A stretch of 64,000 nucleotides of DNA from NCBI GenBank assembly GCA_002794785.1, contig NBBA01000001.1, forward strand, positions 1,426,001 to 1,490,000, in the 5' to 3' direction. Source of the DNA: Coniferiporia sulphurascens. Its lineage: Eukaryota > Basidiomycota > Agaricomycetes > Hymenochaetales > Hymenochaetaceae. A model generated the notes under the pieces. It saw nothing but the letters and a program-made list of their open reading frames with translations. It searched no databases and was not told where the DNA came from. The position numbers were made by a program, and so were the translations under genes. Every line of letters begins with the position of its first letter. The first letter of the stretch is position 1. Positions 1,549-60,566 of the stretch are shown piece by piece.

Positions 1549-1550
1549 CT

Positions 1551-8679: not shown

Positions 8680-8684
8680 TCTGC

Positions 8685-20805: not shown

Positions 20806-21443
20806 GCCTCTTGGGTGGGTTGGACCCCCTTGAGGTGGTTAGTATCCCTCACTCCCTGGGACAGCTTTGCCACTGGGGTCGGGTATGTGAGACAGAGATC
20901 CTGGTACGATTGCAGATCCAGAAGTGGGGCTGGGGGCTGACTGGGCACTTGTCCCATGACCTTGGTTCCTGGGTATTCCAGCTGTAATGGCTGTTTCTGA
21001 AGTGCATGCCAGGGCATGGGAAAGGGCCTGCATGGAGTGTGTGTCAGCATCCCGGCATGCAGAAGTGTAGTGTCTCGGGCCGTAGCGCTGTGGGAGAGTT
21101 CCCCTCAGTGGCTCCAGAGGACTAAATCCTCTGTCGGTTCGTGTGGGGGTAATTCCCACTATGGGCTTAAGTTGATTCCCAGAAGCACAGCAGTACTCTA
21201 CAGGACCTCTATGGTCAGGGGGGGAGTGTGTAGGGTAGGGGGGTTGTTCCATATGGGTGGGGTAGTGCCTACAGTGCCACGACCCTCACCCGGGATGGCC
21301 TCCTGGCACGGCATGCCTTACCCTAGTGCTCCAATATAGCGCCCATATGTCATAGAGGACAGCGGGAGCAGTTTAGGTTGCTGCATATCCCGAGGAAGGT
21401 ACACGCATTGTTTGAGTCCCACAAGGGCGCTCTTAATTCTGGC
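20806..21443 (+). repeat. R-module, 5'-truncated copy
   Basis: About 640 bp without LINE, LTR or recognisable protein homology. Closely similar to 59405-60045 and to the reverse complement of 49004-49645. The 3' terminus, CTCTTAATTCTGGC, is the same in all three copies. I see no conserved sense ORF beginning with ATG. Confidence 0.85.
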
Positions 21444-22039
21444 CCACTCGCCTCGACAGCCAACAAATACTTAGCTGTCAACGGTATCCCCTCTCACCAT
21501 CCCCAAAAGCTTATCACGCAGTCGGTCGACCACCCCTGCTGGGAGCTCTCCACAGTCGCCCAGGTTCTCTGTCATGCCGGTCCCTATGGGGGCTACTGGC
21601 TGAGCTTCGACTCAGCCTACCGGCACAGGCACAGCCTGATTTCACACTGCAGATGGCACAACCACCCCCCTGGCCAGCCCAGTCGACCGCTCACATACTG
21701 GGCGGATGTCGCACATTCCGACCATGGATCCGCAAGGTCTGGCCCCCCCGTGACCCACTTCCAACCCACCACACCAAGTGGGCCAACGAAAACCATCTCC
21801 AGGTTTTGTGCCACTGGCTGAAGCTGACAGGGCATCTTAACCACCTCTCTGACCATACCTCTGCCGCCATCCGCTTGGCTTTCAGTGCAATGGAGCTGGA
21901 GGGACACCCGACCGATGAAGATATGGACCTGGACCTCCTCCAGGATTACATGAGTTGTATGCTTGGACCCTGTTCCCAGGACCCGGACCCGGCTCTTTTG
22001 GAGCTTGCAGGTGCGCTCCCTCCCTTTTCCTCTGACTAG
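21444..22039 (+). pseudogene. ORF2: LINE ORF2 C-terminal fragment in X1
   Basis: Starts at LASTANKYLAVNG within the region after RNase H and continues through the Cys/His region to LLELAGALPPF. Loss of one C in the run after AACC near 21660 shifts the frame midway. Confidence 0.85.
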
Positions 22040-22372
22040 TGCCTGCCCTTTGGACTCCCACATGTATGTCCTGGCCGGCGCCCTCGCCCACCCTTTCCTA
22101 TTCTAAGCTACCCCCTTTTGCCTGATATCATCTGTTTGGCCTGGCAGTAGTGATATGTATTCCTCCCTCTTTCTTGTTCTTTCCCACTAATAGGGGCCCT
22201 TCCCACCTTGGCACCCTTCAGGGAGCAGGGTCCCTGCCCAGTTTCGTGTGTTGTGCAATGACAGGCGCCTCTGTTGTTATGTAGTTAGGGCCCCCCCTTT
22301 GGGGGGGCAGCTTGTAATTATGTAATACTGCAGGAATAATAATAAAAAATAATAAAAAACAATAAAAAAAAG

Positions 22373-22788
22373 TATACCCTGTTCCTCTTGAGGAGGCGTG
22401 CTTGGGTTTGCCCATCCAGGTCGACAAAGGTGAAGGATACTGGGCAGGTCTTCAATAGAGGGAGCTTCTCTGGTAGTGTTGCATAGTGTGGTGCCACCAC
22501 AAAGTCGAGGTGGCAAAGGGAGGGGTTTTGTCGGACCTCCTCAAGGAGTGTTGCTTTGGTGATTGGGTGGGGGTTCTGCCCAAAGAAGACATCCATGCAG
22601 GGCACCATGGAGATGCACAATGTCGATCTGGGGCGAACTCTGGAGGGGGTTAGTTGGAATCGGTCCGAGATGGGCCGATCCGCTGGGCGGGCTAGGCAGT
22701 GATCACGCATATACTTTGTGAATGCATCCGCATGGCGATCTATGATTGCCGATGTGGTGGGAGTGGAGGAGGCGGGTCTTTCTGCAAA
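22373..22788 (-). pseudogene. ORF1: LINE ORF1 (Gag-like) fragment
   Basis: Reads leftward as an internal ORF1 segment matching L9 ORF1 around DRHSAAYASHM to LLKR (shared motifs LTPSRVRPRSTLCISMVPC and LDFVVAPHY). It comes from a diverged subfamily. No zinc knuckles are included, and the rest of the element is not adjacent. Confidence 0.8.
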
Positions 22789-26037: not shown

Positions 26038-26095
26038 CATCCTTCTTGACCAGTAACCACCACCATCAACTAGTGCGGGCAGCTAAACCTCCCCC

Positions 26096-28156
26096 ATGTC
26101 GAACCCAGGTGACTACAGGAACACTCTCTGTCGTACAAACCGAACCAACCCCCCACCCGCCCCATTGGCCAACGCCAATCCAGACCAGGTCGCCAGGATG
26201 GCCGCCAACTGGGCCTCTGCCAGCACCGCAGCTGCCGCAAGGTACAATACGGCCGCCCCAACCACCCCCAACAACAACCCCCCCCAAGACCTGACGTCCT
26301 CCCCAGACGTCCTCACCCCCTCCCCAGCCATCGTCGACTCCCAGTTGATCTCCGCCTATGACTTCACTGCCCAAGCACATGCGGAATCAAGGGCAGCATC
26401 CTGTGTCGGCTCACCAGCCGCCTCGGTAGGGTCGACCCATGGCTCCAATGAATTCGGTGAGACAGCCCCAGAGATGGTGGTTGACCCCCATACCCCCCCT
26501 CAACAGGTGGGAGGCGCAAGCCTCGAGCGGAAATGCTCCTCTGCCGCCATGTCGCCTCTCACCCCGAGAGGACCCCCAGCATGACAACATGAACAGTACA
26601 CCGCAGGGTTCATGTACTCCCTTACCAGGGCCTTGGATGACTTCGACCAGCAAACCAAGGACGCCAACACCGAGACGATCGACATCAAGGCCGCGCAATT
26701 TGTGGGCGACCTCCTCTGGAACGTCCAACAAATGCTGGCAAAAATTGAGCAAGACAGGACCTACCCCGACCACATCATTCACCACAATGCAGTGATGGCC
26801 TACAACTTCACAAGGGAGGGGGCGGTAATAGCCCTCCTGGAACCCTTCGCCCCAGCTCGCCCCCCCCAAAGGGCCCCAACCACCACCGGGACCCCAGGCA
26901 CCGCCCCCATAACCCCAGAAATGAGGGCGCTGACAGATGCAGTCAAGCGCCTGACAACTGATGTAGCTTCTATTTCACGTCAGATGGCCTCCATCAGCTC
27001 TAGACCCACCCCCCGACAACAGCAACAACAACAACAACAACAGCAACCCGCTCCACAGGCCGCCACCCAGGCCGCCCCCACATCCTATGCGCAAGTCGCT
27101 GCAGCTGCAGCCCCCCCGACAGCCAGCAACCCATCTCTGGTGGCCCCAGCCGCTGGAGTGGTCATCAACCCAGGGCAGAAAAAGAAGAAACGCCAGAGGA
27201 AGGTGCCACCACCACCCACAATGTATGCCAAGGACCCAACCTTGGTCCTCACCCCTACAGTCGGCATTCAGGCCGAGAACCAGAAGTCAGCAATGGCTCT
27301 AACAAAAACGTCCCGTGAGTTCTTCACTTCCCTCCCCACCGCAGACCAAGTCCCGGTCCTGTCCTCCTCCTACAACATAAAGGGGAACATCGTGACCACC
27401 TTTGCGGCGCACCCATCCTCGGCTAACCCAACCACGGAAACGATCATTGATCGCCACTCTGCGGCTTATGCCTCCCATATGCGCACAGAGTGCACTGTGG
27501 CGGGAATTAACATCCCAGCCACATTCTCCCTAACCCCCTCCAGAGTCCACCCCAGGTCCGCACTATGCATCTCCATGGTGCCCTGCAAGGACTTTTTGTT
27601 CGGCCAAAACGGACACACCATAAACGAGAAGGCCCTCATGGCTGAAATCCAGCACAACCCGGCACTCCGTAACCTCGACTTTGTAGTCACCCCCCACTTC
27701 ACCACCACTGAGGATCACCTGCCGACACTCGACAGATGCCCAGTGGTATTCTCCTTCATCGACCCCGATGGTTCCATCCACGAGCGCCTCCTTAAGAGGC
27801 CCCATGTCTGGATGTTCGGATCCGCCCTCTGCCTCTCAGTCCCACCTGTCCGCCCCACCCTCATGCAATGTGAATGGTGCCAGGGCCTCAGCCACGGAAC
27901 CAAGGGCTGCCAAGCCCAACCATGTTGCGCTGATTGCGTGGGAGCTCACCTCTCCCGCAACCACCGCAAATCGTGCGCCCACTGCGCGACAGACGCAGTG
28001 CCCGAAGGCGACACATGTCCACACCCTCGCCTCTGCAATAACTGCAAGGGCGACCACCCTGCCACCCTGCCGGCCTGCCCCAAGAAGAGGCGTTACCGCC
28101 AAATCGAAGAGGCCCTCACTGCCGACCCTACCAATGACCAGATGGAGGAAATATGA
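26096..28156 (+). pseudogene. ORF1: LINE ORF1, Gag-like RNA-binding protein, one stop
   Basis: About 686 codons from ATG, broken once by TGA at 26582-26584 (next codons CAA CAT, expected Arg). Order: Pro/Ala/Thr-rich disordered N-terminus; a central helical segment with heptad-like spacing (MRALTDAVKRLTTDVASIS) before a polyglutamine run (about 27019-27047); a basic patch (GQKKKKRQRK); a conserved globular region; then Cys/His motifs, CX2CX4HX4C (CEWCQGLSHGTKGC), CADCVGAH, and CX2CX3HX6C (CNNCKGDHPATLPAC). Role by family: binds LINE RNA in the ribonucleoprotein. Its stop overlaps the ORF2 start as ATGA. Confidence 0.92.
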
Positions 28157-31100
28157 TAGAGACGATCTCTGTCTTGCAGTGGAATGCCACCCGCTCTCTA
28201 GCGGCAATACATTCCCTAATCCCTGTCCTTACAACTGACCCCTCCCCCCCACACCTAATTCTTATTCAGGAACCCCCCTGGTACCAAATAGGACTGCAAC
28301 CATCACTCACCGACCCAACCGGCACCCCAGTCTTCAACGTCCCCACCATCCCAGGCTACACACCGGTCCTACCACCAGAGGCTCGCCCTCGGGTAGTCAC
28401 GTATGTATCCAGGGCCCTCCCCCCCACCTCCTGGTCGATCCCCAGAGCCGCATCCAATGGCACTGATGTACTGATGGTGGAGGTACGATCCCAACTCACC
28501 CTCCGGGTGTGCAACTACTACGGCATGCACCCCCCGGACCGTGAGAACACCTCCTCCCAGTACCCAGGTGAGTCCTTCTTATTCTCACTCCCCTTGGCAC
28601 TAGCCACCACTCTACTCGTGGCAGGCGACTTCAACTGTCGCCACCACATGTGGTCCGATTTCTCCATCCCACGATGGGATGACTTGGGGGTGCAACCCCT
28701 CGATGACTTCTTCCACGGGCATGGCCTTTCGCCTGCCCACCTCCCTGACTCTGACTTGCGACCCGATGGCAAACGCCGCCGGTGTCCCATTGACATGATC
28801 TGGGCCCCACCCGTGGTCAACCCAGACTCTATTTTAGACTCAGGCTCCTCCGACCCCTCCCCATTGTCCGATCATGCCATGCTGCGGTGGATGGTGCCAT
28901 CTCGACTCCCCCCTCCTGTCCTAAAGACATGCCGGCTTCTCCCAGCCGACAAAGAGGAATGGACCAAGATAGCCTTCCCTCTCCTCGAAACAGCCTTCGG
29001 TCTTTTGGGGCACAGCACCCAGGTCCTGGACATCAAAGCTAAAGTGGTTATCGACTCCATGGTCGCCACCCTCCAGCCGTTCACCCGCCTATCAAAGCCG
29101 TCGAAAACAGAAGTCCCATGGTGGTCACCCCACTGCAAGACCCTCCTATCTGCCATTACAACGGCAACCACCCCCCTCCAGCATACATCAGCAAGAAGAG
29201 CCTTTAAGAGAGGCGTCAGGACAGCCAAATGGCAGTTCTATGCTGACCAGGCATCGGAAGCAGATGCCTCCAACATTTGGAACTGGGCCAAACATGGCCT
29301 AGGTAACCGACCCACCCCTATCCCATCGCTGAAATGACGAGATGGTACCTTCACCCAAATGGACAAGGAGAAAGGTGAGCTCTTTCGCGAAACTTTCTTT
29401 ATGCCCCCCCCACCTAGAGCAGCGGCCAACACCCCGCCGCCACCACCACAACCAGCTGCCCCGCCCATACTCCTTTCGGAGCTTACAGGGGCACTGTCCG
29501 ACACGTCCAACTTGTCAGTGCCGGGCCTCTCAGGAATAGGGTACCGCCCCCTGAAATGGGTGGTGGATGCCTACCCTGATGAGATCCTTACACTTTTCAA
29601 TGACTGCTTGCGTTTGGGGCATCACCCCGAGTGCTGGCGGGCGGCAAAGGTGGTAATGCTCAGGAAGCCAAACAAGAAGGACCCCTTCTCGCCACAGTCA
29701 TACTGGCCCATCACCCTCGAGGAAACCCTAGGGAAACTCCTGGAAAAAATTATTGCTAACAGGCTCCAGTACCTCGCAAATACGAGGGACTGGCTGCCAC
29801 CCAACCAATATGGGGGACGCCAAGGCCATTCGGTCTACGACGCTGCCCAACACCTCTTACAAATCGCGGAACACGCCCACTCAGAGGGCCTTGTGTGCTC
29901 GGTCCTTGCGGTCAACATTCAGGGCTTCTTTGACTCGGTACACCCACGACTCCTCCACCAACAACTGTTGGACCTCGGCTGTGCCCCGGACATGGCCAAC
30001 TGGTGCCTGTCTTTCATGACGGACCGGCAGGTAGCTGTCGCCTTCGACGGCACCACCCTCCCAACCGCCCCTAAACCTGACCTTGGCACCCCCCAGGGGT
30101 CGCCAGTCTCTCCCATCCTGTCAACGATATTCGCAGGGGTGGTACTCCGGCGCTTTCACCAAGCCGGCACCACTGCCCTAGCCTATGTTGATGACCACTT
30201 ACTTATATGTGTAGGAACTTCAGTGGCATCCAATTGCTGAGAGCTCGCACGCGCCTACCAACAACTCGACACCCTCTTTGGCACCATCAGACTCAACATT
30301 GAAGCCACCAAGACAGAGTGCCTCCATTTCCACCCCCCTCGGTGATGCACCAGCTATAACGGCTGGGACACCGCCGGCGTACAGGTCAACCCCAACACCC
30401 TCATCTGCCCCTCAATCCCACTTAGGTGGTTGGGGATATGGTGGGACCCAGGCCTCTCATTCAAGCCCCATGTTGAGCGAATGCACTCCAAGGGGCTCTC
30501 CACCCTTGCCGCACTACGCATCCTGGGTAACACCCAACGGGGCATATCGGCCCTCCTCCTCCACCGCCTTTACACCTCCTGTGTCCACTCTGTCCTGTCA
30601 TGGGGAGCGCCAGTATGGTACCATGGCCACCGCCAAAAAACCCTGGTAAACCGCCTCCAGGCCGTACAAAACACGGCTTGCCACTGGATCCTGGGTGTCT
30701 TCAAAGGTGCCTCCCCCCATTCCACTAATTTCCTTTGCTCCGTTCCCCCTCTTTCATTCTATTTCAAATATATAAAGACTACCCATTCCCTTCGCCTCTG
30801 GCATACCCCTCACTCTATTGGTCACAAATTATTTAAAAACATAGCTAATAGACCCTTCTCCCTTTCTCTGCAGGTCCGAGCCCCCCGGGTTCAACAGGTC
30901 CCGGCATACATGCATCCCCCATGGATGGACCCACTGGCTTTCACGAAAGGCAGAGTCCAGTTTACCACCCCCGTCACCCCAGTTAGCGCGGACACCCGGA
31001 AATCTTTCGTAACAGCCACACGCCAACTAGGCTCCACCCCCCACATCCAGGTCTTCACAGACGGCTCCTGCATAGACAATAAGACAGGTTCGGCCATATG

Positions 31101-32151
31101 TGCAATGCTGGGCAACACCCGTCTCCGGTCACGCCGACTGGAGTCCCCCACCTGTGCCACAGCCATGGACGCCGAGGAGTTCTCCCTCGCTACAGCCCCG
31201 GGCTGGGTAGCATGCCGCCTCCCATCGCAACTGCGTGTCGCATCGGACATTTTCTTTCTGTCTGATTCGCTGACTGCTCTACACCTTCTCCGAACTTGGG
31301 CCGCCGCCCCCAGCGCCCACCTCCTTCACATTTGGAAAGCGGGTGTGGAGACTCTGCTGGATTCGTACCCCCAACTCACCATCCATTTCATATGGTGCCC
31401 CGGACACTTGGACATCCCTGGAAATGAATGGGCTGACATGGAAGCAAAGCTGGCGACTGAGCTCCCCCCATCTGACCTAAAACCCTCCACCTCCGCCCTA
31501 AAAGAAGTGGCTGTCCGCACCCTCATGGAAAGATGGACACTCTCACTAGCCCGCCCCCTAGCCTCGACTGCCGATAAGTACCTGGCAGTCCATGGCCTAC
31601 CATCACGCCGACCTCGAAAGCTCCTGATGCATTCGGTCGACCACCCACGCAATGAACTATCTGCAGTCGCACAGGTCCTCTGCCATGCCGGTCCCTACGG
31701 GGGATACTGGCTGAGCTTCGACTCGGCCTACCGCCGCAGACATGGCCTGATCTCGCACTGCAGATGGCACAACCACCCCCCATGGCCAGCGCAGTCGACC
31801 GCCCACATCCTCGGCGGCTGTAGCACCTTCCACCCATGGATACGACGCATGTGGCCACCTTGGGACCCTCTCCCAGTCCACCACTCCAAGTGGGCTGACG
31901 AAAACTGCCTCCTGGTTCTGCACCGCTGGCTCAAGCTAATGGGGCATCTTAACCGCCTTTCGGAACACTCCGTGGGTGCCATCCGGCTGTCTTTTGCCAT
32001 GATGGACCTGGATGGGCACCCCACCAATGAGGATATGGACTTGGACCTCCTATGGGACTACATGCATTGTATGCTCGGACCACGAACCCAGGACTCGGAC
32101 CCAGCCCTTTTGGAGCTCTCAGGTATGCTCCCTCCCTTCCCCATCGAGTAA
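28153..32151 (+). pseudogene. ORF2: LINE ORF2: APE endonuclease, RT, RNase H
   Basis: 1333 codons in one frame with TGA at 29335-29337, 30238-30240 and 30343-30345. Endonuclease residues 1 to about 245: QEPPW near 39, GDFN near 158-161, SDH at 239-241. RT: LLEKIIANRLQ, the palm motif as VNIQGFFDSV with Asn at residue 588 where sister copies have the catalytic Asp, GTPQGSPVS, and YVDD with Asp 680-681. RNase H: Asp 970 (FTDGS), Glu near 1009, Asp 1038 (LSDS), Asp 1095 (NEWAD). A Cys/His C-terminal region follows. Role by family: nicks target DNA and reverse-transcribes the element RNA. The start ATG overlaps the ORF1 stop by 4 nt. Confidence 0.94.
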
Positions 32152-32463
32152 AAGCCTGCCTTTTGAATCCCACATGATACGTCTCGGCCGGTGCTCTCGC
32201 CCTCCCTTACCTCTTCTAAGCTTCCTATTCTAACCTGCCCTCAACCGCTTGGTTTGTTTGTAGCAATATGTATCCCTCCCTCTACCATCTTCCATACTAA
32301 ATAGGGGCTCTTCACACTGTGGCACCCTCCGGGGAGCAGAGCCCCACCCAGTTTGGTGCGATGTGCCATGATGGGCGCCTCCGTTGTTATGTAGTTAGGG
32401 CCCCCCTTCGGGGGGGCAGCTTGTAATTATGTAGCACTGCAGGAATAATTTAAAAAAAAAAAA
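32152..32463 (+). other. LINE 3' UTR, terminal hairpin and tail, L9
   Basis: No gene. It contains the conserved stretch ending GTTAGGG, then a GC stem with a TTCG loop (about 32400-32417), GCAGCTTGTAATTATGTA and GCAGGAATAATTT followed by A. The same arrangement ends every LINE of the main family here, near 9728, 10480, 12005, 14325, 20270, 22290, 22845, 24185, 40440, 47660, 53730, 55955, 57130, 60490 and 63350. It is the likely RT recognition structure. Confidence 0.8.
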
Positions 32464-34325
32464 ATGAAGGACAAGAACCAGTTGGCCATGTCTGGGGCAC
32501 AACCAAGGTCCAGCAGTTGTCGGTGGAGGAGTCGTGGGTGCACCGAGTCAAAGAAGCCCTGTATGTCGACCGCAAGGACCGAGCACACACGGCCCTCTGA
32601 GTGGGCATGTTCTGCAATCTGTAAAAGGTGTTGGGCAGCGTCGTAGACCGAATGGCCCTGACATCCCCCATATTGGTTAGGTGGCAGCCAGTCCCTCATG
32701 TTCACGAGGTACTGGAGCTGGTTAGTGATAACTTTTTCGAGGAGTTTCCCTAGGGTCTCCTCAAGGGTGATGAGTCAGTATGACCATGGCGAGAAGGGAT
32801 CTTTCTTGTTTGGCTTCCGGAGCATTACTACCTTTGCCGCCCGCCAGCATTCGGGGTGGTGCCCCAAATGTAGGCAGTCGTTGAAAAGCGAAAGAATCTC
32901 GTCGGGGTAGGCGTCCACCACCCATTTCAGGGGGCAGTAACCTATTCCGAGAGGCCTGGTGCTGACAAGTTGGATGTGTCGGACAGTGCCCCATAAGCTC
33001 TGAAAGGAGTATGGGTGGGGCAGCTGGTTGTGGTGGTGGTGGCGGGGTGTTGACCGCTTCCTGGGGGGGGGGGGCATAAAGAAAGTTTCGCGAAAGAGCT
33101 CACCTTTCTCCTTGTCTGTTTGGGTGAAGGTGCCATCTTGCCATTTTAGTGATGGGATGGGAGTGGGTCGGTTGCCTAGACTGCGCTTGGTCCAGTTCCA
33201 GATGTTGGAGGCGTCTGCTTCCGATGCCTGGTTGGCGTAGAACTGCCGTTTGGCCGTCCTAACGCCCCTTTTAAAGGCTCTTCTTGCTGATGCACGCTGG
33301 AGGGGGGTGGTTGCCATTGTTATGGCGGATAGGAGGGTCTTGCAGTGGGGTGACCACCATGGGACTTCCATTTTCGATGGCTTTGAGATGCGGGTGAACG
33401 GCTGTAGGGCGACGACCATGGAGTCGATTACCACTTTAGCTTTGGTGTCCAGGGCATGGGTGCTGTGCCCCAAAAGACCGAAGGCTGTTTCGAGGAGCGG
33501 GAATGCTATTTCGGTCCATTTCTCCTTGTCGGCTGGAAGTAGCCTGCATGTCTTTAGGACAGGAGGGGGGAGTCGAGATGGCACCATCCACCACAGCATG
33601 GCATGATTGGACAATGGGGAGGGGTCAGAGGAGCCCGAGTCTAGAATAGAATCTGGGTTGACTGTGGGTGGGGCCCAGATCATGTCAATGGGACACCGGT
33701 GGTGGTTACTGTCGGGTCGCAAGTCAGAGTCAGGGAGGTGAGCGGGTGCTAGGCCATGCCCACAGAAGAAGTCGTCAAGGGGTTGTGCCCCCAAGTCCTC
33801 CCGCCGTGGGACGGGGAAATCGGACCATGTGTGGTGGCAACGGTTGAAGTCGCCCGCCACAAGTAGAGTGGTGGCTAGCGCTGCAGGGAGTAAGAGTAGA
33901 AAGGACTCACCGGGGTACTGGGGGGATGCGTTCTCTCGATTCAGGGGGTGCATGCCGTAGTAGTTGCACACCCTGAGGGTGAGTTGGGCTTGTACTTCCA
34001 CTGTCAGTACATCAGTGCCATAAGATGCGGCTCCGAGGATCGACCAGGAGGTGGGGGGGAGGGCCCTGGATACATATGTAACTACCCAAGGGCGAACCTC
34101 TGGTGGTAGTACAGGGATGTAGCCCGGGATGGTGGGGACGTTGAGGACTGGGGTGCTGTTTGGGTCGGTGAGTGATGGTTGTAGGCCAATTTGGTACCAG
34201 GGGGGTTCCTGTATGAGAATTAGGTGTGGGGGGGAGGGGTCAGAAGTAAGGACAGGAATTAGGGAATGTATCGCTGCTAGCGAGTGGGTGGCGTTCCACT
34301 GTAGGACAGAGATTGTCTCTATCAT
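32464..34325 (-). pseudogene. ORF2: LINE ORF2 N-terminal part (endonuclease to RT), L10
   Basis: Starts at ATG 34323-34325 and runs leftward. The endonuclease is nearly intact (QEPPWYQ, GDFNRCHHTW, PIDMIWAP, LSNHAMLW, where the SDH motif is SNH). The linker and RT follow down to IQGFFDSVHPRLLHRQLL, with the first RT Asp retained, and the piece ends at MANWFLSF beside the L9 tail. A frameshift near 32960-33070 and a stop at about 32772 interrupt it. The His-adjacent Asp-to-Asn change would inactivate the endonuclease. Confidence 0.88.
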
Positions 34326-41960: not shown

Positions 41961-41975
41961 CTCCCCTTCAAACTT
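41961..41975 (-). other. Copia polypurine tract
   Basis: On the minus strand AAGTTTGAAGGGGAG immediately precedes the 3' LTR. The pol stop TGA (41968-41970) lies within it. Confidence 0.75.
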
Positions 41976-44900: not shown

Positions 44901-46788
44901 CAGTTTTGTAAGTATTTTGTAATCGATTTAGATATGGTGTTAAATGTATTGTTGCACCAGTATCAATTATATCCATTGAAGAATAAATGTTGTTAGCAAA
45001 TTTTTCTGTTGTTATAGTGTTAATGCTTATGTCTAAATTATTATCATCCACATCTTCCATGGCGCTATCGTGATTCCCTATAGCATCAAGGAAATCGTTA
45101 TATGAATATATTGGGAATTCTCCCATGTCGAAGTCATTGTCGTCGATTTTGGTTATAAAGGCGGTTTCGCCCTGGCCAATTATGGTGCTTAACTCGATTT
45201 GAGAGCTTGATGTGACATTTGTTGCTGCTGCTGCTGCAGTATGTTTAGCCTGGGCTGCACTTGCCCCAGTCATTGTTGGTGCCGCTGATGCACCCATTTC
45301 CTTCCCTTTTCCTTTGTCATCATTCACGTCCTCTTTCTTTTTCTGAGCTGCCTTCGTCCATTCCGTTTTTGGTGCCCAGCAGTCTCGACTAAAGTGCCCT
45401 AGCTTGTTACAGTTATAGCACTTGATTATGTGTGATTGTTGGTTAGGGGAATATCCCCCTCGTCCTTGTCCTCGCATATATCCGCCACAGCCCCTGTAGC
45501 CGTGACCTTGTGGTTGTACTCCACAGCTAAAACCACATCCGCAGCCCCTAAAATAAGGGTGAGTCTGCTCGTCCTTGGGCAGGTGATTAGCCACCGCTCC
45601 TGTTCTCTGATGATTTTTACGCCACCCCTCAAAGGCATTTCGTAAGGTGGTTAATAAGAATTGAGGGGTTAGTTCAATTTCATCTTTGTCTGGATTTGTT
45701 TCGTTAATCGTTTTAATATATAACTCACTCTGTGTGAGTATGTATTGATATTGTTTGGGCGTTGCCCTCATAATAGCCGATATATAAGTCGACTCTGAAA
45801 CTTTTACCCCTTGGGCTATTAGTTCCTCGTATTTATTGCTGAGGTTATTGAGTGTTCCATCGAAATGGCTGACATGACCTCTGATATCAGAAAGGGCAGC
45901 CTCGTTAAAGCCCTTTGTAATTGTTGTCTGGACATTATATCGTCCATCAAGCACTTTGAGTAGCGCTGGAATATCTTTAGAGAAATTAAGATAATAAGCC
46001 AATATTTTGTCGGGCATAGTGCGCATAATGCCATTATATAAAGCGCTTGATATACCAGTCTCTCCAGTTCCTGGGGAGTTAATGAGCAGGTTACCGTAAC
46101 CTGCACTCTCGATTGCACTTTGGACTCTGTAGTTCCAGAGTTTGTAGTTTCTGTGCCTGTCGAGTTTCTCAATTCCGTCGAAGAATTTCTGGAGTTCCGC
46201 AAGTTTAGTTGCCATACTTGGTTCATCTTCCTCAGTATCGTTAGCATCTGAATCGTCAGGATCAGATGGTTCTGATGGCTCACGTGATGGGTTATTTTTG
46301 GATTCTTCGGTATTTTCTTCTTTGTTATTTTCTTCATCTTCTTTTTCTGGCTTAATATAAGGGTTGTCAACTTTAAATTGTTCTTTTTCATTTGGGTCTG
46401 ATATACCCAAATACATACTGATTTGATATCTGATTTCGGATGATTTTCCTTGATCTGATATTCCTAAGTCTTTAGCGTGATTTGTTAATTCCATTTTATA
46501 GTCAGCTTTTATTTTTAGTTTTTCATTGTTGGTAGAATTATCATACCTGTTAATTCGGTCTTGGATTTGTTGTTCTGTACCATTTATAGGTATTTGTCAT
46601 AAATTACATTGAACTATTAGGTCAACTAACCTTTTGCTATCTTTAGCTTTTTGAATTTTTTCTTCGAGTTCTTCGATAGTAGATGACTGTGTATATGTTA
46701 TTTTTAGTTCATTAGCTATTATTCATAATCCTGATAGTTTTTGCAAACGTGTTTGCTCACGAGTGTTAGGTTTCTGTCCGTCAGACAT
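41968..46788 (-). pseudogene. gag-pol: Copia Gag-Pol polyprotein, seven TGA stops, no frameshift
   Basis: 1607 codons in one frame from ATG 46786-46788 (MSDGQKPNTREQ). TGA stops at 46723-46725, 46597-46599, 44536-44538, 44128-44130, 44050-44052, 43378-43380 and 42802-42804; no TAA, TAG or indel seen. Domains: Gag with acidic and Gly-rich segments and zinc knuckle CYNCNKLGHFSRDC; protease DTGA (about 44968); pre-integrase LHKKLGH; integrase Asp in HMDIWGP, Asp in LQSDNDT, Glu in QQNGVAEQ; RT with KSAYLYGE and the HVDD box; RNase H with YTDADG and the CEAEL glutamate. At least five stops fall where the family usually has Arg, consistent with CGA to TGA. Confidence 0.93.
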
Positions 46789-46846
46789 AGTTTCGTTATT
46801 CGAGGATTTATAAATTTGTTAATTGTTTCATTAGTTATAGAGTCAA

Positions 46847-46857
46847 GGCTCATAACC
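46847..46857 (-). other. Copia primer binding site (initiator tRNA fragment)
   Basis: On the minus strand GGTTATGAGCC directly follows the 5' LTR. Its complement GGCTCATAACC is the anticodon-loop sequence of eukaryotic initiator Met tRNA (CAU anticodon). Drosophila copia is known to prime from an internal initiator-tRNA fragment in this way. Confidence 0.75.
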
Positions 46858-47116
46858 TCTTAAAATCTATGCACGTTGTGGTAGACGATGAGGTGCAGTG
46901 GTGTAGTTGAGGCGAAGGTGGGTTATCAGCGTAAACTGATGTATTTCATGGTAGAGACCAGCTCTCCTTATATACATCTACCGTGAGCTACATATACTAT
47001 AACTATCATAGCTCCTATTCGTATGGCATTATCATTGCGTTATTGTTTACTTAGTAAGATGGTTGTTCATATGACCATCCGTTATTTATATCGTAACGTT
47101 TATATTTATTTTAATA
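46858..47116 (-). repeat. Copia 5' LTR
   Basis: 259 bp. Comparison with 41702-41960 shows ten CpG positions altered in one or both copies (13 nt) and no other difference. Confidence 0.93.
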
Positions 47117-47598
47117 GCAGGCTAGTGAGAGTGTCCATCTCTCCATGAGGGTGCAGACAGCAATCTCTTTTAGTGCAGAGGTGGAAGGTTTGAGGTCAGA
47201 TGGGGGGAGCTCTGTAGCCAGCTTCGCTTCCATGTCAGCCCATTCATTTCTGGGGATGTCCGAGTGGCTGGGGCACCAAATGAAATGGACAGTGAGCTGG
47301 GGGTACGAATCCAGCAGAGTCTCCATGCCTGCTTTCCAGATGTGGAGGAGGTGGGCACCAGGGGTGGTGGCCCACATGCAGAAGAGGTGGAGGGCAGTCA
47401 GTGAATCAGATGGAAAGAAGATGTCTGATGCGACCTGCAGCTGTGCCAGGAGGCAGCATGCTACCCAACCCGGGGCTGTGGTGAGGGAGAACTCCTCGGC
47501 ATCTGTGGCTGTGGCACAGGTGGGGGACTCCAGTCGGCGAGACCAGAGTCAAGTGTGGCCGAGCATTGCGCAGATGGCCGAACCCAACTTATTGTCGA

Positions 47599-47630
<32 letters not shown>

Positions 47631-47923
47631 CCTGCAGTATTACATAATTACAAGCTGCCCCCCAGAGGGGGGCCCTAACTACGTAACAACGGAGGCACCC
47701 GTCATCGTGCATCACACAAAACTGGGCAGGGGCTCTGCTCCCTAGTGGGTGCCGGTGTGTGAAGAGCCCCTATTTAGTAAGAAGACAATGGGAGAAGGAG
47801 GAGTACATATCGCTATGAACAAACTGGGCGGTTAAGGGCAGGTAAAAGTAAGAAGCTTAGAATTGGAAAGGGAGGGCGAGAGTGCCGGCCGGGATGTATT
47901 CAAGGGAATTCGAAAGGCAAGTG

Positions 47924-49003
47924 CTATTCATGAGGAAAAGGGGGGAGTGTACCTGAAAGCTCCAAAAGGGCTGGGTCCGAGTCCTGGGTTCTGGGTCCGA
48001 GCATACAACACATGTATTCCCTTAGGAGGTTCACGTCCATATCCTCGTCAGTCAGGTGTCCGTCTAGGTCCATAGCGGCAAAGGAGAGCCGTATGGTGCC
48101 TGTGGCATGGTCAGAAAGGCGGTTTAGGTGCCCCATTAGCTTAAGCCATCGGCGCAAAACCGGGAGTCGGTTTTTGTCAGCCCACTCTGAGTGGTGGGTT
48201 GGGAGAGGGTCTCTCAGTGGCCACACCCATCGTATCCATGGGTGGAATGTGCTGCAGCCGCCTAGAATGTGAGCAGTCGACTGTGCGGGCCAGGGGGGGT
48301 GGTTGTGCCACCTGCAGTGCGAAATCAGGCTGTGTCTGCGACGGTAGGCCGAGTCAAAACTCAGCCAGTATCCCCCGTAGGGACTGGCATGACAGAGGAC
48401 CTGTGCGACTGCAGATAGCTCGTTGCATGGGTGATCGACTGCGTGCATGAGTAGCTTTCTTGGGCGGTGTGAGGGGGGCCGTGAACTGCCAGGTACTTGT
48501 CGGCAGTTGAGGCTAGGGGGCGGGCTAGTGAGAGTGACCAGTGTTCCATGAGGGTGTGTACGGTGACTTCTTTTAGTGCAGAGGTGGAAGGTTTAAGGTT
48601 GGATGGGAGGAGCTCTGTAGCCAGCTTCGCCTCTGTGTCAGCCCATTCATTCCCAGGGATGCCTGTGTGGCCGGGACACCATATGAAGTGAATTGTGAGC
48701 TGGGGGTACGAGTCCAGTAGAGTCTCCATGCCCGCTTTCCAGATGTGCAGGAGGTGGGTGCTGGGGACGGTGGCCCATGTGCAGAAGAGGTGGAGTGCGG
48801 TCAGCGAATCAGACAGGAAGAAGATGTCCGATGCGACACGCAGTTGAGCCGGGAGGCGGCGTGCCACCCAGCCTGGGGCCGTTGCGAGGGAGAACTCCTT
48901 GGCATCCGTGGCTGTGGCACAGGTGGGGGATTCCAGTTGTCATGACCAGAGTCTGGTGTGGCCCAGCATTGCGCATATAGCCGAACCCGACTTATTGTCA
49001 ATG
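47924..49003 (-). pseudogene. ORF2: LINE ORF2 C-terminal fragment in X2
   Basis: RNase H from the Asp-Asn motif after FTDGS onward. 48361-48867 carries LSDS, WCPGHTGIPGNEWADTE and the start of the C-terminal region. A frameshift near 48475 and a change near 48450 break it, and 47924-48448 then reads to LLELSG. The first RNase H Asp is absent because it lies upstream of the joint. Confidence 0.85.
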
Positions 49004-50264
49004 CCAGAATTAAGAGCGCCCTTGCGGGACTCAAACAACATGTGTACCTTCCTCGGGATATGCAGCCGACCAAAACTGCTCCTGCTGTCCTCTACGACAT
49101 ATGGGCACTATATTGGAGCACTAGGGTAAGGCGTGCCGCACCAGGAAGCCACCCCGGGTGAAGGTCGTGGTGCCATAGGCACTACTCCACCCATATGGAA
49201 TGACCCCCCTACCCTACACATTCCCTCCCCAACCATAGAGGTCCTGTAGAGTACTGCTGCACTTCTGGGAATCAACTTAAGCCCGTAGTGGGAATTACCC
49301 CCACACGAACTGACAGAGGATTTAGTCCTCTGGAGCCACTGAGGGGAACTCTCCCACAGCGCTATGGCCCGAGACACTACACTTCAGCATGCCAGGATGC
49401 CAACACATGCTCCATGCAGGCCCTTTCCTGTGCCCTGGCACGCGCTTCAGAAACAGCCATTACAGCCGGAATACTCAGGAACCGAGGTCATGGGACAAGC
49501 GCCCAGTCAACCCCCAGCCCCCGCTTCTGGATCTGCGATTGTACCAGGATCTCCATCTCGCAGACCCGACCCCGGTGGCAAAGCCATCCCAGGGAGTAAG
49601 GGCTACTAACCACCTCAAGAGGGTCCAACCCACCCAAGAGGCCCATGGTGCCCTGTCGCTTTTCAGCGTCGGGTGGTTCTTACTGCCATGCCATGTGTTA
49701 TGAGCCCCCTATCTCCTTTTAGCACAAGGTGCTGTCATCAGAGACCCTTTTGGGAATTTGGGGGGGCAGTTTTTGATTTGTCATGCCAGGGACAGCGCGG
49801 GCCCCGAGGTGCCCAGAAGGGTATTGCTCAGCACCCAAAGGCATGATCCGAGTTGCCCTGAACCAAGATCTCCCGACCGAAGTCGCCCGCTGCGAGGCAG
49901 GGGGTTTCCCCCCCCCCTGTGAGGACGTTAACGTCGTGTCCCCCCCCACCAAGCCCACATACAATGCAGGCCCAACGAGCACGCCACCCCGAGAGGACAG
50001 CGCAGACGCCAGAAGGATTGCAAGCTCACCAAGAATCCGACCAGTAGCAACATTTTCGACGGGTTGCCAAGACCGCCGGTGAGCTCCGCACCCGTTCCCT
50101 GCCGCATTATGGCAACCAACGACCAACCTCGGCACACCAGGGTGAGTCGGAACCTTCTCTCGTACAATGCCCAGTCCCAGAGAGTCCAGACAAGGTCGGG
50201 TAGCTGCGACTTCCCCCCACTGACCCCAGTCGCAAAACTGAGATGGTGGTGGTAAGAGGACAAG
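49004..50264 (-). repeat. R-module, nearly complete copy
   Basis: 1261 bp, colinear with 58216-60045 minus the solo LTR inside that copy. No recognisable domain. An ATG-started frame antisense to the module (49364-49609, MARDTTLQHARMP, 81 codons) has a counterpart in X3 (ATG at 59682-59684) but its start is ACG in X1, so coding is doubtful. Confidence 0.85.
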
Positions 50265-53200
50265 ACCAGAATGAAAGAGGAGTGGACCAACATCACCTTT
50301 CCACTACTTGAAGCCGCCTTTACAATACAGATGGACAACACCCTCACCCTCAACATCAAAGTGCAGGCCGTGGTCGACTCCATGATCTCAGCCCTCGCCC
50401 CCTTCACCTGAATCACAAAGCCGTCCAAAACCGAGGTCCCCTGGTGGACCTCGACATGCAAAATGCTCCTACGGGCGATTTCAACAGCCTCCACCCCCCT
50501 TCAATGGTCAGCAGCCCACTGTGCCTTTAAGCGGGGCATATGGGCGGCAAAGCGAAATTTTTATGCTGAGCAAGCCGACCAGGCAGATGCCTCCAACATC
50601 TGGGGCTGGGCCAAACATGGCCTAGGCAACCGTCCTACACCGATACCCTTGCTCAAAAAGAGTGATGGCACCTTCACCCAATCTGACAATGAGAAAGGTG
50701 AGCTCTTCCACACCACTTTCTTCACACCCCTGCCACCACAACAAGCGGCAGACACACAGCCACCCCCCCCTCAACCGGCTGCCCCGCCCATCCTCCTCAC
50801 GGAGCTAATGGGGGCACTGTCCGACACCTCCAACTTGTCGGCTCCGGGCCTCTCAGGGATCGGATACCGCCCTCTAAAGTGGGTGGTAGATGCTTACCCG
50901 GACAAGATCCTTGCCCTTTTCAATGACTGCCTGCACATGGGGCACCACCCTAAGTGCTGGTGGTTGGCAAAAGTGGTCATGCTCCAGAAGCCAAACAAGA
51001 AGGACCCTTTCTCACTGCACTCATACCGACCCATCTCCCTCGAAGAGACCCTTGGGAAACTCCTCGAAAAGATCATTGCTAACCAGCTCCAATTCCTTGC
51101 TAACACGAGAAATTGGCTGCCACCTAACCAATACGAGGGGCGTCAAGGACATTCTGTCTACGATGCCACCCAGCACCTCCTTCAGATTGTGGAATGCGCC
51201 CATGCTGAGGGCCGCATATGCTCGGTCCTTGCGGTCAACATACAAGGTTTCTTTGACTCAGTAAACCCTCAACTCCTCCACTGGCAACTGCTGGACCTCC
51301 AATGCCCGCCAGACATGGTGGATTGGTGTCTGTCCTTCATGACAGATCGGCAGGTAGCCATCGCTTTCGACGGCACCACCCTCCCAACCACCCAGAAACC
51401 AGACCTCGGCACCCCCCAAGGGTCGCCAGTATCCCCGATCCTCTCGACCATATTTGCTGGTGTGGTCCTCCGGAAATTTCACCAAACCGGCACCACCACC
51501 CTAGCATATGTCGACAACCACCTTCTTGTGTGCATCGGACCCAGTGTAGCATCCAACTGCCAGCAACTGTCTAATGCCTACCACCAACTCAATGCCCATC
51601 TCGGCGCCATTGGGCTCAATATCGAAACCGCCAAAACGGAGTGCCAGCACTTCCACCCACCTCGATGCCGCTCAGCCGCCTACAATGACTGGGACACCAC
51701 CAGGGTTTGGGTGGCCCCTACCACGCTAATCCGACCCTCCATCCCGCTTCGCTGGCTGGGAATATGGTGGGACCCCGCCCTCACCTTCAAGGCCCATGTA
51801 GAGCACATGCGCTCCAAGGGCCTCTCCACGCTAGCCGCCCTCTGCATCCTCGGTAACACGGAATGTGGAATTTCGGCCCTCCTCCTCCGCCGACTATATA
51901 CCGCCTGCGTTCGCTCTGTTCTCACATGGGGCGCCCAGTTTGGTACCATGGCCAGCGCCAAAAAACATTAGTAAGCCGTCTGCAGGCTGTGCAAAACACG
52001 GCATGTAGATGGATTCTGGGCGTCCATAAAGGCACCTCCCCCTTCTCCACAAATTTTCTTTGTTCCCTTCCCCCTCTTTCTTACTATTTTGAATATACTA
52101 AGACTCTCCATTCTCTTCACCTCTGGCATACCCTGCACTCCGTCAGTAGAAAACGATATAACAAATCAGTAGCTAACCGTCCCTTCTCCACTTCTCTGCA
52201 GGTCCGGGTCCCTCGGGTACAACCGGTCCCCACATACACTCATCCCCCATGGACAGACCCTCTGGCATTTACGAATGGTCAAGTCTCGTTTGCCACTCCT
52301 ATCACTCCGGTCAGCGAAGACACCCACAAGGAATTTGTGGGTGCCACGCACTCCCTGAGCACCCTCCCCCATCTCCAGGTTTTCACCGATGGCTCCCACA
52401 TCGGCTCAAAGTCTGGGTCAGCAGTCTGCGCCATGGAAGGCCTTACAAGCCTCAAGTCTCGCCGGCTTGCCTCCCCCACCTGTGCTACTGCTATGGATGC
52501 AGAAATCTTCTCCCTCACCTCCGCACCAAGCTGGGCCACACACCACCTCCAGGAGCACCTGCCTATCACATCCGACATCTTCTTTTTGTCGGATTCGCTG
52601 ATGGCACTCCACCTGATCTGAACATGGGCGCCAGTTCCAGGTGTGCACCTCCTCCACCAATGAAAGGCAGGGATCCAGACTCTATTGGACTCATACCTGG
52701 ATCTCTCCATGCATTTTGTCTGGTGTCCGGGTCACTCTGACATCCCAGGGAATGAATGGGCAGACTGTGAGGCGAAGTTTGCAACAAATCTCCCCCTGTC
52801 TCCCCTTGCACCCTCCATCTCCGCACTGAAAGAGGCTGCCATCAACACCCTCATGGAGCGATGGACCCTCTCTCTCGCCCGCCCACTTGCCTCGACAGCC
52901 GACAAATACTTAGCTGTCAACGGCGTCCCTTCCCGCCGACCCCGAAAGCTTATTACTCAATCAGTCGACCACCCCTGCCGGGAGCTCTCAGCAGTCACCC
53001 AGGTCCTATGCCATGCCGGTCCCTACAGGGGTTACTGGCTGAGCTTCGACTCAGCCTACCGACACAGACATGGCCTGATCTCACACTGCTGTTGGCACAA
53101 CCACCCCCCCTGGCCAGCCCAGTCGACCGCCCACGTCTTGGGTGGATGTTGCACTTTCCGACCATGGATCCGCAAGGTCTGGCCCCCCCATGACCCACTT

Positions 53201-57393: not shown

Positions 57394-58215
57394 CTAATCA
57401 TTAGGAAAGGGAGGGAGTGTACCTGCGAGCTCCAAAAGGGCTGGGTCCGAGTCCTGGGTTCGGGGTCCGAGTATACGACACATGTAGTCCTGTAGAAGGT
57501 CCAAGTCCATATCCCCATCGGTTGGGTGTCCATTGAGGTCCATCATGGCAAAAGCTAGTCGGATGGCTCCGGATGTCCGGTTGGAAAGGCAGTTTAGGTG
57601 CCCCGTCAGCCGAAGCCAGCATCGCAAAACCGGGAGGTGGTGTTCATCAGCCCACTCCGAGTGGTGGACTGGGAGAGGGTCCCTGGGAGGCCATACACAT
57701 TGTATCCATGGTTGGAAGGTGCTACAGCCGCCTAAGATGTGGGTGGTCGACTGTGTGGGCCAGGGGGGATGGTTGTACCACCTGCAGTGCGAGATCAAGC
57801 CATGTCTGCGTCGGTAGGTCGAGTCAAAACTCAGCCAGTATCCCCCATAGGGACCTGTGCGACAGAGGATTTGAGTGACTGCTGATAGCTCACTCTGGGG
57901 GTGGTCGGCCGAGTGCATGAGTAGCTTTCTCGGGCGGCATGTGGGGGGGCCCTGTACTGCCAAGTATTTGTTGGTGGTGGAGGCGAGGGGGCAGGCTAGT
58001 GCGAGGGTCCACCTGTCCATGAGGGTGCAGATGGCGACCTCTTTTAGCATGGAGGTGGACGGTTTAAGATCGGATGGGGGGAGCTCCGTGGCTAGTTTCG
58101 CTTCCAAGTCAGCCCATTCATTTCCGGGGATGTCCGAGTGGCTGGGGCACCATACGAAATGAACAGTGAGCTGGGGGTATGAGTCCAGAAGAGTCTCCAC
58201 ACCCACTTTCCAGAT
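57394..58215 (-). pseudogene. ORF2: LINE ORF2 C-terminal part, L21 part 1
   Basis: Open for about 272 codons from KVGVETLLDSYPQ: last RNase H motif WCPSHSDIPGNEWADLE, the Cys/His region (ILCRTGPYGGYW, SHCRWYNH, THILGGC) and the LLELAG end. Confidence 0.88.
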
Positions 58216-60045
58216 CATCCTTCTTGTCCTCTTACCACCACCATCTCAGTTTTGTGACTGGGGTCGGCTGGGGGAAGTCACAGCTACCCGACCTTGTCTG
58301 GACTCTCTGGGACTGGGCATCGTATGAGAGAAGGTTCCAACTCACCCTGGTGCACCAGGGTTGGTCATCGGTCACCGTAATGCAGCGGGGAATGGGCACG
58401 GAGCTCACTGGCAGTCTTGGCTGTTACAATTTTCCTTTACTTTTACATTACTGCGCTGACTCACTTCCTCTTTGTCATCATCAGTCAGCGCAACTCCCCC
58501 ATTCCTCTGCCTTACTCATCCTTATTTGCCTTGCGCCATAAGACGCCATGATGACACCTTCCTGCACCATCATGACGTGCTTTGCTTACTGATCACCATA
58601 CTTGTATTACCAAGGCCTTCCTTGCATTTCCATGACCTTCCATAGGCTGGTAAACATACCTAACCAAGTCGCTACAGTAACAAACACATAGAGTAGCATA
58701 TAAGCATGTAACGTCAGTAGCACAAGCCCTAAGCTTGTGCTCTTTGTTCATACAAGCCCATTATCTGCTACCACCAGTCTACTGTGTGCCAGAAGGGCCA
58801 CTAGTCGCTTCGTCACAACCCGACTCACCTCAGAAGCTTACCACATCCACATCGCCGATCAGGAAGCCCCATCGCCGATCATCCTCGACTTACGACATCT
58901 AGGAAGCCCCGTTGCCATACCATCAGTTCCAACAATCAGGAAGCCCTGACGTCGATCACTGCATAACCGTTGAGCTTAACATTGGCAACCTGTCGAAAAC
59001 ATTGCCCCTGGTTGGATTCTCAGTGAGCTTGCATCCTTCTGGCGTCTGCACTGCCCTCTCGGGGTGGTGTGCTCGTTGGGCCTGCATTGTATGTGGGCTC
59101 AGCAGGGGGGGACACAACGTTAATGTCCTCACAGGGGGGGGGAAACCCCCTGCCTCGCAGTGGGTGACTTTGGTTGGGAGATCTTGGTTCGGGCAACTCG
59201 GATCATGCCTTTGGGTGCTGAGCAATGCCCTTCTGGGTACCTCAGGGCCCGCGTTGTCCCTGGCATGACAAATCAAAAACTGCCCCCCCAAATTCCCAAA
59301 AGGGTCTCTGATGACGGCACCTCGTGCTAAAAGGAGATAGGGGGCTCATAACACATGGCGTGGCGGTAAGAACCACCCGACACCAAAAGGCGACAGGGCA
59401 CCATGGGCCTCTTGGGTGGGTTGGATCCCCGGGAGGTGGTTAGTATCCCCTACTCCCTGGGATGGCTTTGCCACCGGGGTCGGGTCTGCAAGACGGAGAT
59501 CCTGGTATGATTGTGGATCCAGAAGTGGGGCTGGGGGTTGACTGGGCGCTTGTCCCATGACCTCGGTTCCTGAGTATTCTGGCTGTAATGGCTGTTTCTG
59601 AAGCGCATGCCAGGGCACAGGAAAGGGCCTGCATGGAGTGTGCATCAGCATTCCGGTGTGCTGAAGTGTAGTGTCTCGGGCCATAGCGCTGTGGGAGAGT
59701 TCCCCTCAGTGGCTCCAGAGGACTAAATCCTCCGTTGGTTCATGTGGGGGTAATTCCCACTACGGGCTTAAGTTGATTCCCAGAAGCGCAACAGTACTCT
59801 ACAAGACCTCCATGGTCGGGGAGGGAATGTGTAGGGTAGGGGGGTTGTTCCATATGGGTGGGGTAGTGCCTACGGCACCACGACCCTCACCCTGGATGGC
59901 CTCCTGGCGCAGCACGCCTTACCCTAGTGCTCCAATATAGCGCCCATATGTCGTAGAGGACAGCGGGAGCAGTTTTGGTCGGCTGGATATCCTGAGGAAG
60001 GTACACGTGTTGTCTGAGTCCCGCAAGGGTGCTCTTAATTCTGGC
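58216..60045 (+). repeat. R-module, complete copy (about 1265 bp plus solo LTR)
   Basis: Starts CATCCTTCTTG directly after the target duplication. That 11-mer and the later ACCACCACCATC also begin LINEs L9 and L23. The interior is unrelated to ORF1, ORF2 or the LTR elements. It includes a G-rich/C-rich stretch near 59100-59160 and ends CTCTTAATTCTGGC. No ATG-started sense ORF of note. Confidence 0.85.
58422..58981 (+). repeat. Solo LTR of the Gypsy family, inside the R-module
   Basis: 560 bp, TGTTACA to CTTAACA, flanked by TTGGC (58417-58421 and 58982-58986). Removing it restores colinearity with the R-module of X2. Confidence 0.96.
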
Positions 60046-60240
60046 CTTTCTGACCACGCCACAGGCGCCATCCGGTTGTCTTATGCCGTGATGGACTTTG
60101 ATGGACACCCAACTGACAAAGATATGGACTTGGACCTCTTACAGGAATACATGCGCTGTATGCTTGGACCCCGAACCCAGGACTCGGACCCAGCCCTTTT
60201 GGAGCTATCAGGTATGCTCCCTCCTTTCCCGCTCGAGTAA
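60046..60240 (+). pseudogene. ORF2: LINE ORF2 last codons in X3
   Basis: SDHATGAIRLSYAVMDFDGHPT through LLELSGMLPPF to the natural stop, only about 64 codons. The LINE 3' UTR follows. Confidence 0.85.
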
Positions 60241-60566
60241 CGCCTGCCTTTCGAACTCCCACATGATATGTCTCGGCCAGTGCTCTTGCCCTCCCTTTCC
60301 ATTTCTAAGCTTCTTATCTTAACCTGCCCTCACCCGCTTGGTTTGTTTGTAGCAATATGTATCCCTCCTTCTCAAAGTGCCTTCTTACTAAATAGGGGCT
60401 CTCCACACTTCGGCTCCCCTTGGGGAGCAGAGCCCCTGCCCAGTTTTGTGTGATGCGCAATGACGGGCGCCTCTGTTGTTATATAGTTAGGGCCCCCCCT
60501 TTGGGGGGGCAGCTTGTAATTATGTAATACTGTAGGAATAATAATGATAAAACCTGCTTTCCAGAT

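Follow-up and report, generated by a model that had tools for sequence, protein, structure and literature searches.

How does one and the same sequence come to stand directly upstream of long interspersed nuclear element (LINE) fragments that begin at different places? This question is raised by a stretch of 64,000 nucleotides from the basidiomycete Coniferiporia sulphurascens (contig NBBA01000001.1, positions 1,426,001 to 1,490,000; hereafter the window, in whose own numbering coordinates are given). A sequence of about 1.27 kb, here termed R, is found in it three times, each time running into a LINE of the same orientation. It is probable that a template switch from LINE RNA to R RNA during target-primed reverse transcription (TPRT) generates units composed of a target-site duplication (TSD), R, a LINE 3' fragment, a tail and the second copy of the TSD. 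The TSD-bearing copies are single insertion units, and the R-LINE units combine fixed R ends with variable LINE breakpoints, a sequence motif at the junction and a covarying RNA structure. In mechanistic terms, R would be a family of structured, apparently non-coding RNAs of about 1.27 kb. During TPRT of LINE RNA, the nascent complementary DNA (cDNA) would halt at a short LINE motif, YY-G|C-Y (Y, pyrimidine), and would then be extended with R RNA as template, from the 3' end of this RNA and mostly through to its 5' end, yielding the order TSD, R, LINE 3' fragment, tail and TSD.

A sequence-only reading of the window had named three places for R and had described a constant R 3' terminus that enters LINEs of the same orientation at three positions. 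These observations were confirmed, the three copies by a self-comparison of the window. The LINE at 26038..32480 (forward strand), which encodes endonuclease, reverse transcriptase and RNase H domains and has a 5' head resembling that of R, serves as coordinate reference (LINE position 1 = 26038). The first copy, X1 (20806..21443, forward strand), is 5'-truncated and comprises the last ~640 bases of an R of family A, one of the three families described below. It is 90.5-90.6% similar to the other two copies, has its TTCTGGC end at 21443, and is fused to a LINE part that extends from LINE position ~5517 to the LINE 3' end and is followed by an A-rich tail (21444..22365, forward strand). No TSD was found when one was looked for around this R-LINE unit. 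The second copy, X2 (49003..50265, reverse strand), is whole but for its first 6 bases and is joined to the LINE at position ~5034. The fused LINE (47117..49002, reverse strand) is interrupted and resumes at 47599, a second 5'-truncated LINE (48981 to ~47600) being nested 21 bases past the joint. The tandem LINE start was considered as a second jump at one hot spot, which was rejected on account of the 18-bp TSD (1 mismatch) of the nested LINE. The third copy, X3 (58216..60045, forward strand), is a full-length R that starts with CATCCTTCTTG, contains a long terminal repeat (LTR) insert and is fused to the LINE from position ~5919 to the tail (60046..60551, forward strand). Its 15-bp TSD (2 mismatches, 10 exact bases) lies at 58201..58215 (forward strand) and 60552-60566. 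The insert within X3 is a solo LTR of 560 bp at 58422..58981 (TGTTACA...TTAACA, TSD TTGGC), which is 78% similar to the sequences at 987-1554 and 8120-8680. Altogether, the R 3' end CTCTTAATTCTGGC has three mismatch-free occurrences in the window, each adjoining a sense LINE, while shuffles gave a mean of 0.43 matches at up to 2 mismatches and reached three matches in 1 of 100 cases.

To the left of R, a LINE is also present at X1, X2 and X3. The presence of LINE sequence on both sides would suit an independent transposon that had inserted into older LINEs, or an R that is the 5' part of one longer element. However, the two flanking LINE parts have opposite orientations, and at X3 the left one represents the insertion target. 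To judge from the genome-wide breakpoints and the TSDs considered below, an origin of this kind is extremely improbable.

The genome (39.3 Mb in 31 contigs, including the window) was searched for R. In 20 loci fetched with their flanks and in the window copies, R starts with CATCCTTCTTGTCC and ends with CTCTTAATTCTGG(C), both ends being fixed. The first base or its neighbour is the start in 18 of the 20 fetched copies, and the 5'-cut copies begin at R base 21 (L017), 115 (L021) and ~623 (X1). The R 3' end pattern, with up to 3 mismatches, yielded 70 matches in the genome, as compared to 1 match for the reversed pattern. These matches comprise 3 in the window, 20 in loci L009-L028, 40 in L029-L068, and the remainder in L094 and L096-L101, and all of them were read with their continuation. 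It should be noted that L029-L048 were picked for an exact TTCTGGC end, but that L049-L068 cover the variant ends (A, T, other), so that the whole joint set is unbiased by this choice. A sense LINE follows R in 69 of the 70 matches. The remaining one, L062, is undecided, as an antisense LINE tail begins ~13 bases past R. A sense LINE also follows in all 15 family-B and all 12 family-C joints read, which brings the R ends followed by a 5'-truncated LINE in the same orientation to 95 of 96 (69/70, including one of family C; 15/15 of family B; a further 11/11 of family C).

These joints are distributed over many LINE positions. With the family-C locus L094 set aside, the family-A set consists of 69 joints, of which 67 could be placed in sense orientation at 54 positions of the reference LINE, from 7 to 6282. 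Where a position had to be extrapolated across an unaligned start, it may be in error by a few bases, and the 46 joints with an alignment starting no more than 3 bases from the joint occupy 34 positions. One locus, L029, maps to the reference LINE only from base 46, or else to other LINE copies. The tabulation called for in the sequence-only reading has thus returned many LINE positions with a fixed R 3' end. It excludes a single common breakpoint, and it does not bear out the notion that R is part of one longer transposon continuing past TTCTGGC. Free-standing R was looked for as well and was not found among the 96 R 3' ends read (70, plus 15 of family B and 11 further ones of family C; one undecided). 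Likewise, a search for a solo R source gene by means of a core motif returned LINE-bearing stretches or small contigs (among the 100 of 147 matches listed, which were read in part). At one locus, L060 (contig C4:672270-672729, 400 bases read), R is joined at LINE position 7, just inside the LINE 5' end. Here, ORF1 may have gained an R leader, and R-LINE joints such as this one may show how LINEs acquire new 5' ends. In L047, L067, L048 and L040, the fused LINE stops after 90-170 bases and is followed by other LINE pieces, which are possible double switches or nested insertions.

Whether R and the LINE entered the genome together was judged from the TSDs at 22 independent loci. A TSD of 13-15 bp with 0-2 mismatches encloses R, LINE and tail in 8 of these (L010, L012, L017, L019, L020, L024, L028 and X3), which implies that the whole was inserted as one LINE insertion in those 8 loci. 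At L020, the TSD became visible on recognition of a solo LTR that had been added afterwards and is marked by a 5-bp CCAAC duplication, and the possibility that this locus is a three-part chimera including an LTR was dismissed on the same grounds. L023 is a segmental duplicate of L019, with an identical R-LINE unit and the same TSD on another contig, and the two were counted as one locus. Since the TSDs enclose R plus LINE and not R alone, the idea that R is a DNA transposon or an insert within a LINE was rejected. For the 8 TSD-bearing copies, the many breakpoints and the extent of the TSDs refute an independent transposon.

We then asked what distinguishes the LINE positions at which R is joined. 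The lost LINE side of each joint was reconstructed from the nearest LINE copies, so that the context is that of relatives and not of the true parent LINE. In 63 family-A joints (all but the 6 read last), the consensus in the LINE is YY-G|C-Y. By weight, pyrimidines make up 93-94% at positions -3 and -2, C makes up 72% and G 1% at +1, and pyrimidines make up 89% at +2. Judged by the nearest relative alone, YYNHY is present in 50 of the 63 joints (16% expected, p=2e-28) and YYGCY in 20 (1.4% expected). The dinucleotide YY at -3,-2 is found in 56 of the 63 joints (33% expected), in 46 of 53 when shared sites are counted once, and in 22 of 27 joints of families B and C. By comparison, R-less 5'-truncated LINEs with a duplication from the same loci have YY at -3,-2 in 3 of 12 cases (Fisher p=1.5e-5) and never YYNHY (0 of 12), although this control is small, includes one A-rich TSD and is uncertain in register where LINE and target share bases.

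The sequence-only reading had attributed to each joint 2-3 nt (GC or GCC) common to R and LINE. A shared GC is indeed seen in the LINE relatives of X1, X2 and X3, but it does not hold as the whole rule. In none of 90 joints of families A, B and C does the nearest LINE relative have G at -2. As R has G at this position, the YY motif cannot be due to overlap with R, and pure microhomology was rejected as the rule for the joints. A minor overlap seems to be superimposed on the LINE motif. The base after GG is C in 51 of 69 family-A joints and in 12 of 15 family-B joints, but among the 12 family-C joints it is A ten times and G twice, with A at 3 of the 4 sites of this family. We take this family-dependent base to mean that R's last base and the LINE overlap by 1-2 bases, noting that the sites of family C are few (Fisher p=0.007). 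The joints also bear on trans-splicing, in which an R exon would be spliced to cryptic acceptors of the LINE RNA. Such a process could account for a fixed R end with variable LINE positions, but the LINE mostly has YG or YA/YC ahead of the joint and not AG, which leaves trans-splicing with next to no credibility.

Several LINE sites were used more than once. In family A this applies to ten sites, namely 5633 (four times), 4617 (three times), and 5320, 5509, 5517, 5534, 5919, 5931, 4472 and 4775 (twice each; for one member at 5931, the position was extrapolated across 34 bases). The repeatedly used sites of family C are 5990 (six times), 5537 (three times) and 6067 (twice). The LINE parts at shared sites are mostly 65-90% alike, which is below the value for the R parts (about 90-94%); L038/L100, which have one joint in common, were left out of this comparison, as were L025/L098 and X1/L101. 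Because the LINE parts mostly differ by 10-35%, the shared sites mostly represent separate events. Closer pairs are L019/L023 (100%, site 5509, the duplication mentioned above), L051/L055 (97%, site 4775) and, within site 5990, L082/L093 (96%), L090/L092 (91%) and L092/L095 (91%). On these sequence comparisons, re-copying of fixed chimeras is disfavoured as the main source of copies.

Besides the small R-less control and the use of relatives for the LINE context, the following points weigh against the template switch as set out here. Firstly, no TSD was found in 14 of the 22 independent loci in which it was looked for. The LINE 3' end is within the stretch read in 9 of these 14 (in X2 and L013 only past a nested LINE), and distance does not, therefore, explain all missing TSDs. 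This is a mild count against the model, the likely causes being age, truncation of R and nesting. Secondly, the 12 family-C copies use only 4 sites, and some of these chimeras may have been copied as units. Thirdly, and as a limit of the sequence-only reading, the LINE-side YY motif, which is not common to R, is stronger than the GC overlap, which is not the whole rule. Lastly, RNA ligation before TPRT would give an identical product: a fragment of LINE RNA would first be ligated, by its 5' end, to the 3' end of R RNA, and ordinary TPRT would then insert the joined molecule. Under this alternative the same anatomy is expected, and such ligation is described for U6/L1 chimeras in excerpts of PMC13174262. 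Moreover, the YY at -3,-2, which lies partly on the lost LINE side, would suit a cutting site in LINE RNA, and it is present in only 3 of 12 R-less truncations. On the other hand, the family-dependent base after TTCTGG (C in 51/69 for family A, A in 10/12 for family C) fits a cDNA end that anneals to R's last base, though this is not decisive. Taking both sides together, we consider ligation unlikely. Template switching, as put forward in the sequence-only reading, is supported as the best mechanism so far; as ligation gives the same product, the jump itself is the step that we infer, and the join would be a template jump of the reverse transcriptase instead of a prior RNA ligation.

The nature of R itself was approached from its sequence. 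The majority R sequence is 1267 bases long, and 19 copies are on average about 91% alike. In these copies, CpG bases are changed in 22-26% of cases and other bases in up to 3.4% per change type, and the majority sequence has 94 CpG, which at 0.81 of expectation is mildly low. The longest reading frames (109-214 amino acids) vary in place and strand among 29 copies, so that a coding function was rejected and R RNA is apparently non-coding. No Rfam match to R was obtained up to E=1 (window positions 48500-50800), and R was accordingly rejected as a ribosomal RNA (rRNA), small nuclear RNA (snRNA) or known ribozyme. A place with hammerhead-like letters did not hold up when inspected, and telomerase RNA was rejected since four telomere-type words were absent, TTAGGG repeats being assumed. 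R falls into three families, A, B and C, that are 65-75% alike and have heads and tails of the same kind. Family B was recognised from 41 stretches at least 80% identical to a diverged copy (best 40 of 291 candidates scored) and family C from 18 stretches at least 87% identical to another diverged copy (best 40 of 295 candidates scored).

A conserved fold is predicted for the 3' ~360 bases of R. In 24 full-length copies (10 A, 8 B and 6 C), pairing holds in 98.8% of cells over the 85 predicted pairs and falls to 47-54% when partners are slid, while cells changed on both sides number 99 as compared to 33.7 in shuffled data (none of 500 as high), although both controls flatter a fold that was predicted from the same alignment of related sequences. 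Pairs with a double change number 14 as compared to 11.3 (15 of 500 shuffles), and further pair types are at the shuffle level (55 versus 56.0). The double changes between families are the stronger point in favour of the fold. When 29 copies were folded separately, with column shuffling, the 3' part and the core stood out most, and the 5' ~400 bases displayed no excess of compensating pairs (13 versus 10.8 shuffled). The last six bases of R, UUCUGG, are predicted to pair with CCAGAA inside R, and this terminal pairing is kept in family C (UCGUGG/CCAUGA) and in L078 (UCUUGG/CCAAGA), which suggests that the LINE-joining end of R lies on a conserved helix. At the opposite end, the first ~33 bases of R can be aligned to the start of two LINE subfamilies (scores of 22-30 versus 13-16 for the best of 500 shuffles). 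R would be transcribed from its LINE-like 5' head, R and LINE would have a promoter in common, and a discrete R RNA ending in ...UUCUGG(C) would exist.

Is R then a host RNA or an element in its own right? R copies could be pseudogenes of an ordinary host non-coding RNA without replication of its own, which is compatible with template switching. A covarying structure is expected of a functional RNA, the only mildly low CpG content of the majority sequence (0.81) looks as if sources escape the decay of the copies, and U6 and 5S behave in this way in mammals, according to excerpts of PMC13174262. Less easily reconciled with such an origin are the absence of R outside LINE fusions among the 96 3' ends read (one undecided), the LINE-like head (22-30 versus shuffled maxima of 13-16), and the existence of three diverged families that have no Rfam match up to E=1. 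We would place this possibility somewhat short of an even chance. The other view, to which we give about the same odds, is that R is a self-perpetuating RNA parasite with a LINE-type promoter in its 5' head and a fold whose 3'-terminal helix presents the acceptor end, and that its sole mode of replication is to cap truncated LINE cDNAs at YYG|CY. As such a parasite, R would be a non-autonomous retroelement for which template switching is the means of copying, so that it could do without its own tail. By pattern matching in the genome, with the places read in part, R-type 5' ends number 259 and one type of LINE 5' end 292, while there are 646 exact LINE tails and 147 matches to the R core motif.

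The sequence-only reading had likened these units to the MINE elements of Magnaporthe, and this likeness was borne out by comparison with Gogvadze et al. (2007, PMC2104539, here and below as far as excerpted). In M. grisea, 31 WEIRD-MGL elements combine a full-length WEIRD (1113 nt) with a truncated LINE, and TSDs of 10-20 bp were found in 19 of the 31 (PMC2104539). The 33 chimeras have 28 switch sites, six of them re-used, with the motif GCC*A/U, and the excerpts report neither solo WEIRD nor microhomology at the joints (PMC2104539). WEIRD RNA was measured by quantitative reverse-transcription PCR (PMC2104539), and WEIRD transcripts were observed under stress (PMC3978060, as excerpted). WEIRD copies have been proposed to represent pseudogenes of a host non-coding RNA. 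In both systems, a LINE of the same orientation that lacks its 5' part is preceded by a full-length partner, the non-coding RNA WEIRD of ~1.1 kb there and the putative non-coding RNA R of ~1.27 kb here. Common to both are also numerous breakpoints, some of them used repeatedly, TSDs, the absence of solo copies (here among the 96 R ends read) and a short switch motif in the LINE. The motifs, GCC*A/U there and YYG|CY here, are related but not the same, and the 1-2 base overlap at the joints seen here was not found there, judging from those excerpts. Furthermore, the host of R is a basidiomycete, and R comprises three diverged lineages and has a covarying structure, a 3'-terminal helix and a LINE-like 5' head, features that may set it apart from WEIRD. 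The R-LINE units represent a second fungal system of the MINE kind; in the open-licence literature, no basidiomycete case of such an RNA-LINE chimera was found.

Short interspersed nuclear elements (SINEs) are non-autonomous, depend on LINEs and have a fixed 3' tail of their own. R resembles them in being non-autonomous and LINE-dependent, but has no fixed 3' tail, and its LINE part differs from copy to copy. For U6/L1 and other mammalian 5' chimeras, in which U6 is full-length, either template switching or RNA ligation has been offered as explanation (excerpts of PMC13174262). Unlike U6, R is 1.27 kb long, has no Rfam match and is not a known snRNA, small nucleolar RNA or rRNA, and its 5' ends are about as numerous as the LINE 5' ends of one type (259 versus 292, pattern counts). 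Likewise, in R2 template jumps of Drosophila a reverse transcriptase jumps from LINE RNA to another RNA, and the short internally deleted elements (SIDEs) of R2 and R1 are non-autonomous and keep the LINE 5' end (PMC3414825, as excerpted). Unlike R, these SIDEs are internally deleted LINEs, and the R2 jumps are few (snU12, tRNA; same excerpts of PMC3414825). The chimeras in the literature covered here, as far as excerpted, come from one ascomycete, from mammals and, in small number, from Drosophila R2, and the partner is read as a cellular RNA. In C. sulphurascens, the partner belongs to a family that is diversifying, has a covarying structure and begins like a LINE, and that by pattern counts comes close in frequency to one type of LINE 5' end. 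This raises the question whether the captured RNA is itself a parasite. The system makes it testable whether template switching can be the regular replication route of an element, and which features of the LINE RNA determine the place of the jump.

Further features of the window include LTRs of ~560 bases at 987-1554 and 8120-8680, which flank gag-pol-like frames (Ty3-like by eye) and have two further copies of ~560 bases at 58422-58981 and 37959-38519, and an element at about 41700-47117 that is Copia-like by eye. Among 7996 candidates scored, the closest named proteins to the LINE ORF1 are from Coniferiporia weirii (46-49% identity, 2 matches), as are those closest to a protein encoded 0.6 Mb away (73% identity, 2 matches), in line with a hymenochaetoid agaricomycete as host. 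In the genome, the LINE and R places crowd together on each large contig, within what is roughly a single region a few hundred kb long (among the matches listed, the first 100 per search; contigs C1-C18), for example at 1.31-1.58 Mb of C1, 1.49-1.73 of C2, 2.04-2.32 of C3 and 0.97-1.33 of C7. These crowded regions, with the strong CpG decay of R, are possibly LINE-rich centromeres.

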